From Blastococcus saxobsidens (GTDB lineage Bacteria > Actinomycetota > Actinomycetes > Mycobacteriales > Geodermatophilaceae): a stretch of DNA of 64,000 bases. Under the pieces are notes generated by a model that saw only the letters and a program-made list of their open reading frames with translations, made no database searches and was not told the origin of the DNA. The position numbers and the translations under genes were made by a program. The stretch spans positions 1 through 64,000 of the forward strand of contig NZ_JAAGWG010000018.1 of the NCBI RefSeq assembly GCF_010682065.1, given 5' to 3'. Of the stretch, positions 25,842 to 33,176 are shown in pieces. Position 1 is the stretch's first letter. Every line of letters starts with the position of its first letter.

Positions 25842-25883
25842 CGGAGAGGTGGCTAAGCTCGGGTCGAGCCGCGACCACGGCTC

Positions 25884-25926
25884 CCGGACGAGCGGTGCCG
25901 TACCCGGTGTGCGACAAGACGGCGCC
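25884..25926 (+). promoter_or_regulatory. guanidine-III (ykkC-III) riboswitch
   Basis: The 43-base element contains the conserved pieces of the class: CCGGACGAG (25884-25892), GCCGTACCCGGT (25897-25908) and ACAAGACGGCGCC (25914-25926). CCGG at 25884 pairs with CCGG at 25904, and GCCGT (25897-25901) forms the pseudoknot with ACGGC (25919-25923). The ribosome site AGAGGAG begins immediately after the 3' end, so guanidinium binding would control its exposure. Confidence 0.88.
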
Positions 25927-25939
25927 AGAGGAGCCCGCG

Positions 25940-26254
25940 ATGTCGTGGTTGGTGCTGGTCCTGTCCGGGGTGCTGGAGGCGGTGTGGGCTGCGGCCCTGG
26001 ACCGCTCGGAGGGCTTCACGCGGCTCTGGCCGACGGTGCTCTTCGCCGTCGCGCTGGCCGCGAGCATGGGCGGGCTCGCCTTCGCGATGCGCGAGCTCCC
26101 GCTGGGCACGGCCTACGCGGTGTGGGTGGGCATCGGCGCGGTGCTGACGGTCGTCTACGCCATGGTGACCGGCGCGGAACCGGTCTCGCTCGTACGGCTG
26201 CTGCTGCTCGCCGGGATCGTCGGCTGCGTGGTCGGCCTCAAGCTCGTCCATTGA
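25940..26254 (+). CDS. SMR-family guanidinium exporter (Gdx/SugE type)
   Basis: A 104-residue, four-helix small multidrug resistance protein. The first helix carries the essential membrane Glu in SGVLEAVWAAALDRSEGF, in the Gdx rather than EmrE sequence context. PLGTAYAVWVGIGAVLTVVYAMV is the second signature. Gdx proteins expel guanidinium in exchange for two protons as dual-topology dimers. The guanidine-III riboswitch directly upstream supports that substrate and fixes the ATG at 25940. A strong hairpin begins right after the stop. Confidence 0.9.
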   Translation: MSWLVLVLSGVLEAVWAAALDRSEGFTRLWPTVLFAVALAASMGGLAFAMRELPLGTAYAVWVGIGAVLTVVYAMVTGAEPVSLVRLLLLAGIVGCVVGLKLVH

Positions 26255-28307: not shown

Positions 28308-29315
28308 TCAGCGGATGACGACGACGTACTCCCCGCGCGGCACGAACTCGCCGATGACCGGAGCTCCGGGGACCTCGCCGCCCAGCAGCAGGCCGCCGGA
28401 GGTCTGGGCGTCGGCCAACAGGAGCGCCTCGTCCTCCGAGACGGCCGACAGGTCGGTGTGCGGCCGCACCCAGTCGAGGTTGCGACGGGTCCCACCGGAG
28501 ACGAACCCGTCGGCCAGGGCCTGCCGGGCACCGGCCAGGTAGGGCACGGCGGCCGCGTCGACCACGGCGGTCACCCCGCTGGCCCGCGCCATCTTGTAGA
28601 GGTGCCCGAGCAGGCCGAACCCGGTCACGTCGGTGCCGGCGCGGATCCCGGCGGTGACCGCTGCCCGACCGGCGTCGCGGTTCAGCGCGGTCATCGAGGC
28701 GACCGCCTCCTCCGAGACCTCGCCGGTGGCCTTCATCCGGCTGTTGAGGACGCCGACGCCCAGGGGCTTGGTGAGGCTCAGCGGGGTGCCGGCCACCGCA
28801 CCGGAGTTGGTGATGATCCGGTCGACGTCGACGATCCCGGTCACCGCCATCCCGTACTTGGGCTCCGGGTCGTCGATGGAGTGACCGCCGCCGACGTGGC
28901 AGCCCGCCTGCTGGGCGACGTCGAGGCCGCCGCGCAGCACTTCGGCGGCGAGCTCGGCGGGCAGCACGTCCCGTGGCCAGCCGAGCAGGTTCACGGCCAC
29001 GACCGGGGTGCCACCCATCGCGTAGACGTCCGACAGCGCGTTGGCCGCGGCGATCCGGCCGAAGGTGTAGGCGTCGTCGACGACCGGGGTGAAGAAGTCC
29101 GTGGTCAGCACGATGCCCTGACCGCCGGCGATCCGGACCACGGCGGCGTCGTCGCCGTGGTCGAGGCCGACGACCAGCTCGGCGGCCGGGTCCACCGGCC
29201 CCTGCGCGGACAGGCCGGCGACCACGGCCTCCAGCTCGCCGGGCGGGATCTTGCAGGCGCACCCGCCGCCGTGCGCGAACTGGGTGAGCCGGATGCGGGC
29301 GGGTGCGGTGGTCAC
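28308..29315 (-). CDS. selD: selenophosphate synthetase
   Basis: Makes monoselenophosphate from selenide and ATP, the selenium donor for Sec-tRNA. 335 residues. The N-terminal glycine-rich segment is AHGGGCACKIPP, so the catalytic position is Cys, not Sec, and the following Lys is present. GLDHGDDAAVVRI, TTDFFTPVVDD and ANALSDVYAMGGTPV are the Mg-ATP-binding Asp blocks, and GHSIDDPEPKYG is the family motif. The GTG start at 29315 has TAGATT 7 bases upstream (leaderless), although it could also be read with the WYL gene 21 bases before it. First step of the Sec island. Confidence 0.95.
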   Translation of the reverse strand: MTTAPARIRLTQFAHGGGCACKIPPGELEAVVAGLSAQGPVDPAAELVVGLDHGDDAAVVRIAGGQGIVLTTDFFTPVVDDAYTFGRIAAANALSDVYAMGGTPVVAVNLLGWPRDVLPAELAAEVLRGGLDVAQQAGCHVGGGHSIDDPEPKYGMAVTGIVDVDRIITNSGAVAGTPLSLTKPLGVGVLNSRMKATGEVSEEAVASMTALNRDAGRAAVTAGIRAGTDVTGFGLLGHLYKMARASGVTAVVDAAAVPYLAGARQALADGFVSGGTRRNLDWVRPHTDLSAVSEDEALLLADAQTSGGLLLGGEVPGAPVIGEFVPRGEYVVVIR

Positions 29316-29336: not shown

Positions 29337-29924
29337 TCAGGAGAGACCGCCGGGGAGCAGCCGGAGACGGGGTGCCGCCTCCGGCGGTGCGACCGGGGTG
29401 CGGGGCAGCTTCCGCCCCGCGGGGTGGTTCGAGGCCGGAGGGGTGCCGATGCCCGGCAGCTCGCGCCGCGGGGCGACCTCGTCGGTCACCTGCACGTCGT
29501 TGATCCGGTCCTCCCGGAACCAGCGGAGCTCCTGGCGCTCGCGGCACCAGGCGACCAGGAACCAGTGCGCCCCCTGGCGGGCGAGCAGCTGCGGCTCCAC
29601 CGTGCGCTCCGACCAGCGCTGCTGGCGGTCGCAGTAGTCGATGACCAGCACCCGCCGCTCGGCCAGCCCGCGCTCGACCCGGCGCCGCAGATCCGCCTCG
29701 CGGGCGGCCTCGGACGCCAGCCACCGGTGGCTGGCCAGCATCCGCGCCCGGCGGCCGGCATCGGGCTCCAGCGCGGTGAGGACCTTCTCCATCGCCGTCT
29801 GCCCGGCCTCGGCGAACGGCCCCTCGGTCCGGCTCGACAGGGCGGCGACGATCGCGGCCGCCTCCTCGGGGGTGAGGTCGACCGGGGGCAGCGGCGCGGG
29901 GGTGCGGTGCTCGGTGCTGGTCAC
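29337..29924 (-). CDS. WYL-domain protein lacking an HTH
   Basis: A 195-residue protein. The core RRVLVIDYCDRQQRWSERTVEPQLLARQGAHWFLVAWC followed by ELRWFREDRI is the WYL domain, a Sm-like sensory fold of transcription factors. The N-terminal helical stretch (LTPEEAAAIVAALSSR) resembles the region between HTH and WYL in those regulators, but no winged helix is encoded before the start, and I see no remnant of one upstream. It lies between selD and the Sec tRNA in the selD direction, so a role in controlling the selenium genes is possible but unproven. The C-terminal 45 residues are low complexity. Confidence 0.75.
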   Translation of the reverse strand: MTSTEHRTPAPLPPVDLTPEEAAAIVAALSSRTEGPFAEAGQTAMEKVLTALEPDAGRRARMLASHRWLASEAAREADLRRRVERGLAERRVLVIDYCDRQQRWSERTVEPQLLARQGAHWFLVAWCRERQELRWFREDRINDVQVTDEVAPRRELPGIGTPPASNHPAGRKLPRTPVAPPEAAPRLRLLPGGLS

Positions 29925-29996: not shown

Positions 29997-30092
29997 GGAG
30001 GCGTCAGGGTGTCTGGTGGCCCCCGCGGCCTCTAAAGCCGACGTGGTCGAGCATCTCGGCCAGGCGGGTTCGATTCCCGTCCGCCTCCGCCA
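29997..30092 (+). tRNA. selC: tRNA-Sec with anticodon CUA (reads UAG)
   Basis: A 96-base gene with encoded CCA. Acceptor GGAGGCG (29997-30003) pairs with CGCCTCC (30082-30088), G73 then CCA. The D arm is long with a 4-base TGGT loop (30007-30024, one mismatch). The anticodon loop CTCTAAA (30030-30036) sits between CGGC and GCCG, putting CTA at 30032-30034. A 7-bp variable arm GGTCGAG/CTCGGCC (30045-30061) and a T arm GCGGG-TTCGATT-CCCGT complete it. Long D stem with 4-base loop, long variable arm, G-U first T-stem pair and position between selD and selA identify tRNA-Sec. Normal tRNA-Sec has UCA; CUA should decode UAG. The eighth acceptor pair is T-C. Confidence 0.93.
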
Positions 30093-30123: not shown

Positions 30124-31440
30124 ATGAGCGCCGACCCGCGGCGGCAGGTGCCGCGCACCGACACGCTGCTCGCCGACCCACGCCTCGCGGCCGCCGCCGG
30201 ACGACTGGGCCGCGCGCTGGTGAAGGACGCCGTCCAGCGGGTGCAGCAGCGGGTCCGCGCCGGGGAGGTCGCGCCCGACGCCGCCGTCGACGCGGTGCTG
30301 GCCGAGCTGCCGACGACGGCGTCGAGCCTCCGCCCGGTCCTCAACGCGACCGGCGTCCTCGTGCACACCAACCTCGGCCGGGCCCCCCTCTCGGACGCCG
30401 CGGTGGCGGCGATCACCGCCGCGGCCGGCACCACCGACGTCGAGCTCGACCTCGGCACGGGGCGCCGGGGCCCCCGCGGGGAGGCGGCGCTCGCCGCGCT
30501 GCTGGAGGCCGTGCCCGCCGCCGAGGCCGCGATCGTGGTCAACAACTGCGCCGCGGCCCTGGCCCTGGTGGCCACCGCGCTCGGTCAGGGCCGGGAGCTG
30601 GTCCTGGCCCGCGGCGAGCTGGTCGAGATCGGCGACGGCTTCCGCATCCCGGAGCTGCTGCAGAGCACCGGCGCCCGGCTGCGCGAGGTCGGCACCACGA
30701 ACCGGGTCGCCGTGGCCGACTACCGCGACGCGCTGGGCCCCGACACCGGCGCGGTGCTCAAGGTGCACCCGTCGAACTTCGTCGTCCGCGGCTTCACCCG
30801 GTCCGTGGACGTGGCCGAGCTGGCGGCGGCGCTGGCGGGCACCGGCGTCCCGCTGGTCGCCGACGTCGGGTCGGGGCTGCTGCGGCCCAGTGCGGTGCTG
30901 CCCGAGGAGCCGGACACGCAGACCACCCTGGCCGACGGCGCGGACCTCGTCCTGGCCAGCGGCGACAAGCTGCTCGGTGGGCCGCAGGCCGGCCTGGTGC
31001 TGGGCCGCGCCGACCTGGTGCAGCGGCTGCGCCGGCACCCGCTGTACCGGGCGCTCCGGGTGGACAAGACCACCCTCGCCGCGCTGGAGGCGACGATGCG
31101 CGGCCCGCGGCCGCCGGTGCAGGAGATGCTCGCCGCCGACGTCGAGGAACTGCGCGCCCGTGCCCGGGCGGTGGCCGAGCGGCTCGCCGGTGCCGGCATC
31201 GACGCCGTCGCCGTGGACGCCGAGTCCCGCGTCGGTGGGGGCGGGGCGCCCGAGCACCCGCTGCCCGGGGCCGCCGTCTCCCTGCCGCCGGGCTTCGCGG
31301 AGCCGCTGCGGCTCGGGAACCGGCCGGTCGTCGGCTACGTCGAGGACGACCGCACCCTGCTCAACCTGCGCAGCGTCCCCCCGTCGGCCGACGGCGACCT
31401 CGCCGACGCGGTGCTGGAGGTGGCGGCCGCGTGGACGTGA
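30124..31440 (+). CDS. selA: L-seryl-tRNA(Sec) selenium transferase
   Basis: PLP enzyme that converts Ser-tRNA(Sec) to Sec-tRNA(Sec) with selenophosphate. 438 residues, close to family length. RPVLNATGVLVHTNLGRAPLSDAA is the SelA N-terminal signature, and LASGDKLLGGPQAG carries the PLP-binding Lys near residue 282. KVHPSNFVVRGFTRSV and DVGSGLLRPS are further family blocks. The ATG start begins MSADPRRQVPRTDTLL, a typical SelA start, 31 bases after the tRNA. It overlaps selB by 10 bases. In this organism its product should be inserted at UAG. Confidence 0.95.
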   Translation: MSADPRRQVPRTDTLLADPRLAAAAGRLGRALVKDAVQRVQQRVRAGEVAPDAAVDAVLAELPTTASSLRPVLNATGVLVHTNLGRAPLSDAAVAAITAAAGTTDVELDLGTGRRGPRGEAALAALLEAVPAAEAAIVVNNCAAALALVATALGQGRELVLARGELVEIGDGFRIPELLQSTGARLREVGTTNRVAVADYRDALGPDTGAVLKVHPSNFVVRGFTRSVDVAELAAALAGTGVPLVADVGSGLLRPSAVLPEEPDTQTTLADGADLVLASGDKLLGGPQAGLVLGRADLVQRLRRHPLYRALRVDKTTLAALEATMRGPRPPVQEMLAADVEELRARARAVAERLAGAGIDAVAVDAESRVGGGGAPEHPLPGAAVSLPPGFAEPLRLGNRPVVGYVEDDRTLLNLRSVPPSADGDLADAVLEVAAAWT

Positions 31441-33176
31441 TCGCCACCGCGGGCCACGTCGACCACGGCAAGTCGGCGCTGGTGCGGGCGCTCACCGGCA
31501 TGGAGCCCGACCGCTGGGCCGAGGAGCGCCGCCGCGGGCTCACCATCGACCTCGGGTTCGCCTGGACGACGCTGCCCTCGGGGCGCCGGCTCGCGGTCGT
31601 CGACGTCCCCGGGCACGAGCGGTTCGTCGGCAACATGCTGGCCGGTGTGGGTTCGGTGCCCGCCGCCCTGGTGGTGGTCGCCGCCGACGACGGCTGGTCG
31701 GCCCAGACCGCCGAGCACGTCGCCGTCCTCGACGCCCTCGGGGTACGGCGGGCGCTGCTCGCCGTCACGAAGTCCGACCTCGCCGACCCCGCGCCCGTCG
31801 TCGCCGACGTGCGGCAGCGGCTGGCCGCGACGTCGATGGGGGACGTGCCTGCGGTGGCCGTCAGCTCGGTGACCGGGCAGGGCCTGCCGGAGCTGACGAC
31901 GGCGCTGGAAGCCCTCCTCGCGGGGCTCCCGGCCTCCGATGCCGCCGCGCCGGTGCGGCTCTGGATCGACCGGGCCTTCACGATCAGGGGCGCCGGCACC
32001 GTGGTCACCGGCACCCTGGCCGCAGGAACCGTGACGCCCGAGGACCGGCTCCTGCTGGGTGGTCGCGAGGTGACCGTGCGCGGCGTGCAGTCCCTGGGCG
32101 CCCCCGTCGAGCGCGCGCAGGCCACCGCGCGGGTGGCGCTGAACCTGCGCGGCGTCGCGGTCGAGGAGCTGTCCCGGGGCGACGCGCTGCTCACCCCGGG
32201 CGCCTTCCGGCTCACCGACGTCGTCGACGTGACCCTCGCCGTCGAGCCGGACGAGCGGCTGCCCGCCGAGCCGGTCGTGCACGTGGGCTCGGCGACCGTC
32301 GGCGCCCGGCTGCGCCCGCTGGACGGCGCCGCCGTGCGGCTGCGGCTGACCGCCCCGCTGCCGCTGCGGGTGGGCGACCGCCTGCTGCTGCGCGATCCGG
32401 GCGCCCGGCGGGTGCTGGGCGCCGACGTCCGCGACGTCGACCCGCCCGAGCTGCGCCGGCGCGGGGCCGCCCGGCAGCGGGGTGCGGAGCTGGCCGCTCA
32501 GCCCGAGGGGGACGCGGGCGCAGCGGCCGACCTCGCCCGCCGCCGGATCGTGCGCGCCGCCGACTTCGCCGCGATGGGCTGGCCGGTGCCGGCCGGGGCC
32601 ACCGAGCAGGGGCCGTGGCTGCTGGCGCCCGGCCTGGCCGACGAGCTCGCGGCCCGGGTGCCCGACGTCGTGACCCGCTTCCGGCGGTTGCGGCCGCTCG
32701 AGCCGGGGCCCCCGGTCGAGGTCGTGCGCCGCGCCCTCGACCTCCCCGACGCCGACCTGGTCGCCTCGCTCGTGCGACCCCCGCTGGTGCTGCGCGAGGG
32801 CCGGGTGGTCGACGGAGACGCCGTCCTGCCGCCGACCGTGCAGAAGGCCGTGGACGACATCCGCGCCCGGCTCGTCCTCGACCCGTTCGCCGCGCCGGAG
32901 GCACCGGAGCTGGTGGTCGCCGGCCTCGGGGTGCGCGAGCTGGCCGCGGCGGTGCGCAGCGGGCAGCTGGTGCGCGTCGGGGAGGGCGTCTACCTGGCGC
33001 CGGACGTCGGCGGCGTCGCCCGGAACCGGCTGGCCACGATCCCGCAGCCGTTCACGCTCAGCCAGGCCCGGCAGGCGTGGGGGACCAGCCGCCGGGTGGC
33101 CGTCCCGCTCATGGAGTGGCTCGACGCCCAGGGCGTGACCGAGCGGCTGCCCGACAACACCCGTCGCCTGCGCTAG
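31431..33176 (+). CDS. selB: selenocysteine-specific elongation factor SelB
   Basis: GTPase that carries Sec-tRNA to the ribosome and reads the SECIS hairpin. 581 residues. G1 GHVDHGKSALVRALTG starts at residue 8, G2 region RRRGLTIDLGFAW, G3 DVPGHERFVGNM and G4 TKSD follow. EF-Tu-like domains 2 and 3 and a SelB-specific domain occupy the middle, and C-terminal winged-helix repeats (about 380-581), the mRNA-binding part, end in PLMEWLDAQGVTERLPDNTRRLR. GTG start inside selA. The gene itself stops with TAG at 33174-33176, although its own system should recode UAG where a SECIS is present. A perfect palindrome follows. Confidence 0.95.
   Translation: MDVIATAGHVDHGKSALVRALTGMEPDRWAEERRRGLTIDLGFAWTTLPSGRRLAVVDVPGHERFVGNMLAGVGSVPAALVVVAADDGWSAQTAEHVAVLDALGVRRALLAVTKSDLADPAPVVADVRQRLAATSMGDVPAVAVSSVTGQGLPELTTALEALLAGLPASDAAAPVRLWIDRAFTIRGAGTVVTGTLAAGTVTPEDRLLLGGREVTVRGVQSLGAPVERAQATARVALNLRGVAVEELSRGDALLTPGAFRLTDVVDVTLAVEPDERLPAEPVVHVGSATVGARLRPLDGAAVRLRLTAPLPLRVGDRLLLRDPGARRVLGADVRDVDPPELRRRGAARQRGAELAAQPEGDAGAAADLARRRIVRAADFAAMGWPVPAGATEQGPWLLAPGLADELAARVPDVVTRFRRLRPLEPGPPVEVVRRALDLPDADLVASLVRPPLVLREGRVVDGDAVLPPTVQKAVDDIRARLVLDPFAAPEAPELVVAGLGVRELAAAVRSGQLVRVGEGVYLAPDVGGVARNRLATIPQPFTLSQARQAWGTSRRVAVPLMEWLDAQGVTERLPDNTRRLR

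Follow-up and report, generated by a model that had tools for sequence, protein, structure and literature searches.

The window analyzed here, a stretch of 64,000 nucleotides from Blastococcus saxobsidens, contains a single tRNA gene at positions 29997 to 30092 on the forward strand (selC), which ends in an encoded CCA and is labeled tRNA-Pyl, anticodon cta, by ARAGORN. The Rfam tRNA-Sec model, RF01852, matches the gene end to end (model positions 1 to 91) with 65.8 bits (E value of 3.5e-11), and this covariance score, above the curated gathering score of 47, places it among the bacterial tRNA-Sec genes. A preliminary description of the locus had proposed such a covariance search and had pointed to a long, Sec-type D stem with a 4-base loop and to a CUA anticodon at 30032 to 30034. 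Each of these points held: in the RF01852 alignment, the D stem is 6 bp with a 4-base loop (some D-stem pairs being marked nonstandard), and sequence and ARAGORN agree on CTA at 30032 to 30034, within the anticodon loop CTCTAAA. A 6-bp D stem with a 4-base loop is described as a SelA recognition feature in the part of PMC7609411 considered here. The variable arm, described earlier as 7 bp, folds instead as 8 pairs, one of them G-U (minimum-energy fold). By eye from the sequence, the acceptor stem has seven standard pairs and a U-C as the eighth, and there is a 5-bp T stem and a G73; the 8/5 acceptor-T domain, long variable arm, and G73 that serve as criteria for tRNA-Sec are all present. The fold energy of selC corresponds to a z of −3.4. 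When the bare strand is folded, the structure of lowest energy includes the acceptor stem and variable arm only; the evidence for the whole cloverleaf is the covariance model and ARAGORN. Positions 29997 to 30092 are thereby confirmed as a real, full-length tRNA-Sec with a CUA anticodon.

Downstream of selC on its strand lie selA (L-seryl-tRNA(Sec) selenium transferase; 30124 to 31440, +; TIGR00474, 426.1 bits against a cut-off of 267.9; PF03841) and selB (Sec-specific elongation factor; 31431 to 33176, +; TIGR00475, 292.9 bits against a cut-off of 242.25). The SelB product has a C-terminal winged helix (PF09107 at residues 536 to 577), and the stop codon of selB is itself TAG. Among the SelA sequences compared, the highest identity is to that of Blastococcus sp. 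LR1 (89%), which by itself would most likely place the organism in Blastococcus. On the opposite strand, selD (selenide water dikinase; 28308 to 29315, −; TIGR00476, 388.2 bits against a cut-off of 125) lies beyond a gene for a WYL-domain protein (29337 to 29924, −; PF13280, E value of 1.9e-15), which is a possible regulator of the sel locus. The translation of selD contains GGGCACK, which we take to be the N-terminal motif carrying Cys, not Sec. The preliminary description placed the tRNA between selD and selA; selA adjoins on the same strand, and the WYL-domain gene intervenes on the selD side. Elsewhere in the window, a Guanidine-III riboswitch was found at 25863 to 25928 (+; 63.4 bits), and shortly after it a small membrane protein gene ends at 26254, whose predicted product looks like an SMR-type exporter.

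The genome assembly (4.09 Mb, 77 contigs, ~91% complete) has eight matches to RF01852, and above the cut-off there are only two, selC and one tRNA-Ser(tga). The latter was rejected as a second tRNA-Sec, as were the six matches below the cut-off, which are tRNA-Ser, -Tyr, -Leu, and -Met. A second tRNA-Sec with UCA, together with TGA-containing selenoprotein genes, had been named in advance as a finding that would speak against Sec at UAG; no UCA tRNA-Sec was found by the RF01852 search of this ~91% complete genome.

A gene for the alpha subunit of formate dehydrogenase, fdhA, is present on another contig of the same genome. It has a single in-frame stop codon, TAG (C14:89958; surrounding protein sequence ENQARI*HSATVPGLGASFGRG, the asterisk marking the TAG). 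Open frames on both sides of the TAG are long. Translation through the TAG gives a protein that the NCBIfam formate dehydrogenase model NF041513 matches with 1922.5 bits, far above its cut-off of 1400, and that falls under the cut-off of TIGR01591. In an alignment with 1h0h, a formate dehydrogenase of solved structure, the TAG stands opposite the Sec residue, written X in ARIXHSATV, and the next best chains after 1h0h bear names stating that they are selenocysteine-containing. The sequence GGTCTG occupies the apical loop of a hairpin 18 nt after the TAG; the SECIS of Escherichia coli fdhF has an identical loop at identical spacing. A lack of any TAG-containing selenoprotein gene had been the other finding expected to tell against UAG decoding, and a gene with both an in-frame TAG and a downstream SECIS-like hairpin was what the preliminary description had proposed to look for. 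fdhA has both, with its TAG at the Sec residue, and is the only TAG-bearing selenoprotein gene located in this genome.

The hairpin is shared by relatives. GGTCTG is found in the loop at the same spacing in 30/30 fdhA loci of the family, while in 20 outgroup fdhA loci the loop is GGTCTG in 10, at 18-nt spacing, and AGTCTG or AGTTTG in the other 10. Across 32 distinct sequences from family and outgroup fdhA, 212 of 224 cells are paired, compared with 73 to 142 in controls that shift the 3′ arm by 1 to 3. The 12 unpaired cells all belong to the outermost pair and all occur in outgroup sequences (12/19); at one pair, five types occur. Since these sequences are protein-coding and closely related, the pairing counts should be taken as support and not as proof.

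A SelA search of named genomes gave 80 loci that were kept, 37 counted as Geodermatophilaceae and 43 from others. A 96-nt tRNA-Sec with CTA accompanies SelA at all 37 Geodermatophilaceae loci (15 distinct sequences); the 37 include Bacillus sp. AZ43, a record with a title marked unverified, whose SelA falls inside the CTA clade. Among the 43 nonfamily loci, a tRNA-Sec was found within the flank in 25, always with TCA. The CTA tRNA pattern was detected in 101 of 112 family genomes and 9 of 12 genera. Genomes without it are nine from genera g5, g6, and g7 and two incomplete ones (G097 and G098), in which TAG is still present in fdhA. The g5, g6, and g7 genomes are fragmented assemblies, probably from uncultured organisms; six of these nine showed a TCA tRNA-Sec, and G067, G071, and G073 showed none among the matches listed. 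ARAGORN reads TCA in g6 (L109), g7 (L106 and L108), and g5 (L223 to L225). In an order-wide search, the real-looking tRNA-Sec among the matches listed carry CTA when they belong to the family and TCA when they do not, the exceptions being G058 and G230.

These distributions bear on whether selC could be a decayed tRNA-Sec, its CUA a chance mutation in a disused system. Such decay is very improbable given the CTA anticodon at 37/37 family loci and in 101/112 family genomes, a matching TAG in fdhA flanked by long open frames, and selA and selB genes that score above their cut-offs.

The two exceptional genomes deserve separate description. G058 has a CTA tRNA-Sec (L120:5833-5928) and a second, TCA tRNA-Sec (L119:1169-1263, −) on contig C17, near the contig end and amid transposase-like genes. 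Its sole FdhA and UGSC matches carry TAG. When the 69-kb contig was scanned for read-through codons, a single TGA and a single TAG passed, neither with a strong GG-capped hairpin. The TCA gene is perhaps a transferred orphan, or G058 perhaps a potential two-codon Sec strain. G230, a genome bin of another family, has both a TCA and a CTA tRNA-Sec (loci L122 on C194 and L121 on C119). The CTA gene lies on a 4.8-kb contig, both FdhA of this bin have TGA, and contamination is the probable source of the CTA gene. A search of viral contigs for a CTA tRNA-Sec, made with one exact pattern, returned 0 matches.

The codon at the Sec site of formate dehydrogenase follows the anticodon. Searching with a 242-residue piece of the B. 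saxobsidens FdhA, we found matches in 99 of 112 family genomes, and in 98 of these 99 a match contains a single stop codon, which is TAG. The 121 family matches comprise 118 with one TAG, 3 with no stop, and 0 with TGA. Two of the stop-free matches are deleted copies in G079, and the third, in G098, is a partial match that ends before the site. Among the matches listed for 397 genomes of the order, all family FdhA have TAG and 66/66 outside the family have one TGA. These family and outgroup counts refer to a stop within the match; its position was read out in 30 family and 20 outgroup loci, and the stop stands at the same place and in the same protein context in 30/30 of the former (the 30 best matches) and 20/20 of the latter, which were chosen from listed rows with TGA and so show place and context, not frequency. 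The CTA-bearing genome G079 (genus g8) lacks the Sec codon and the hairpin stretch in both fdhA copies (L226 and L227), one loss being in frame and the other accompanied by a frame shift; this is either a true deletion or an assembly artifact at a segment common to both copies. The FDH of g6 and g7 (loci L209 to L212, L218, and L219) is of a different, more distant type and has TGA at its Sec site in 5/5 genomes. No FDH match spanning the Sec site was found in g5. In G070 (g6), locus L213 is related to the FdhA of the family but decayed: it has a frame shift, and its TAG falls within the first Cys motif and thus away from the Sec site. We read this stretch as a pseudogene.

Other selenoprotein candidates were considered as well. 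UGSC has 95 matches across the family, 72 with one TAG, 23 without a stop (3 of them from TCA genera), and 0 with TGA; the codon context was read out at 11 of 30 loci, with TAG in all 11. No UGSC match was found in the B. saxobsidens genome, and since the model does find the genes of relatives, UGSC is probably absent here or located in the missing 9%. AhpC/TSA has four matches in this genome, none with an in-frame stop. A read-through scan with a crude filter, covering the window and 43 kb of other stretches of the same genome (107 kb in total), passed one TAG, that of fdhA, and seven TGA (six in the window and one in L017); four of the seven stand directly before the annotated beginning of the following gene, and three remain. 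UGA may be kept as a pure stop, as the preliminary description proposed; in this genome the point was examined through FdhA, AhpC/TSA, and UGSC and through the 107-kb scan.

UAG continues to be used as a stop codon. TAG is the stop of 7 of 46 likely ORFs in the window, including selB, and at SelA loci UAG closes 34/226 ORFs in the family versus 33/214 in outgroups (ORFs picked by a crude GC3 filter); depletion of UAG as a stop was not seen. A special role for the TAG stop of selB had no support, TAG being found in 10/35 family and 9/43 outgroup selB genes (2 family loci ran off the contig). As UAG remains an ordinary stop, Sec insertion would have to depend on context, with the hairpin as the likely mark. 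A reading of UAG as Sec throughout the genome, with the hairpin not needed, could appeal to the only tRNA-Sec found being one that reads UAG, yet it is highly unlikely in view of these stop counts and of the loop conserved at constant spacing in family fdhA. UAG is recoded in context, not reassigned.

The change of anticodon can be bracketed within the family. A SelA tree was built from 71 rows by a quick method that included no bootstrap, and it was rooted at the midpoint for drawing only. In this tree, all 38 CTA rows form one clade with an SH-aLRT of 100, and one anticodon change is needed; 18 of the 43 outgroup loci, which had no tRNA-Sec in the flank, were left out of the tree, and L103 and L107 have no assigned anticodon. 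TCA-bearing g5 adjoins the CTA clade, and g6 and g7 form a separate group. Compared with the six UCA tRNA-Sec of the family, selC differs by 9 substitutions (g6 and g7) or 10 to 14 (g5), and four substitutions are common to all six comparisons: two anticodon bases and the anticodon-loop closing pair (U-A to C-G). It is hard to credit that selC is a pyrrolysine tRNA, as its cta anticodon led ARAGORN to label it, when the tRNA-Sec model matches it in full with no other Rfam family reported there, selA and selB adjoin, and it stands at this small distance from the six UCA tRNA-Sec, with the same four anticodon-arm changes in every comparison. The name tRNA-Pyl is a misannotation. The switch may have passed through an intermediate one step away, with anticodon UUA; none was seen among the matches listed in the order-wide search. 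On balance, it is quite likely that the switch occurred once, inside the GTDB family: other genera, one of them adjoining the CTA clade in the SelA tree, keep near-identical UCA tRNA-Sec, two of them with UGA in FDH, so that states before and after the switch would stand in one family in which UAG is not depleted.

Taken together, we assign a probability of about 95% to the reading, drawn from sequence comparison, that the only tRNA-Sec of this organism exchanged its UCA anticodon for CUA in an ancestor shared by most Geodermatophilaceae and that Sec would be inserted at the hairpin-marked UAG of fdhA. SerRS would load selC with serine, SelA would turn this serine into Sec, and SelB would bring the Sec-tRNA to the ribosome where a hairpin directly follows UAG. 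In this genome the Sec codon so served would be the UAG of fdhA, and UAGs lacking the hairpin, the stop of selB included, would still terminate, with RF1 instead of RF2 as the competitor at the Sec codon. The original proposal that Sec should be encoded by UAG is supported by the position of the fdhA TAG at the Sec residue, by the hairpin after it, and by the joint distribution of codon and anticodon among relatives. According to the part of PMC7609411 considered here, the anticodon arm is bound by none of the Sec enzymes; this would account for an easy change of anticodon. Sec appears to have moved between stop codons while the rest of the code stayed, and the family-wide data suggest that little was needed: new bases at two anticodon positions and at the closing pair of the anticodon loop, plus, we infer, a TGA-to-TAG change in few genes. 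A practical warning for annotation also follows, as selC is called tRNA-Pyl, and annotation with table 11 would presumably break fdhA up or list it as a pseudogene.

The preliminary description had suspected that the principle was known from actinobacteria, and this is a natural code variant already reported for Geodermatophilaceae. The portion of PMC5330540 considered here gives, after Mukai et al. 2016, three Geodermatophilaceae genomes with a CUA tRNA-Sec, their UAG codons lying in FDH and UGSC; a further UAG selenoprotein that it names is AhpC of Blastococcus saxobsidens; the principle is repeated in PMC8124441 and PMC10778597, as far as the portions considered go, and the parts covered of PMC13188914 and PMC9312934 make no mention of Geodermatophilaceae. 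Both marks of this recoding were found here: a CUA tRNA-Sec with no UCA tRNA-Sec found in the ~91% complete assembly, and a UAG that lies in frame within fdhA, at the Sec position, with a SECIS-like hairpin. The present locus agrees with the published system in family, anticodon, UAG at the FDH Sec site, and hairpin after it. It differs in its selenoproteins, since UGSC has no match here and the AhpC/TSA matches have no stop. In contrast to the three genomes in the portion of PMC5330540 considered, CTA is found here in 101/112 genomes, alongside genera that keep TCA. Neither this family-wide count nor the genera keeping UCA and UGA were found in the literature searched, which did not extend to the full text of Mukai et al. 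2016, and the bracketed switch is our main addition to published work. With the pyrrolysine tRNA (CUA), selC shares an identical anticodon and codon; unlike it, selC is matched by the tRNA-Sec model and has sel genes as neighbors. With the canonical bacterial Sec system, it shares the tRNA fold, the enzymes SelA, SelB, and SelD, and the GGTCTG-capped hairpin at 18-nt spacing, whereas the canonical tRNA-Sec has UCA and reads UGA, and here the codon would be UAG and the competing release factor RF1 in place of RF2.
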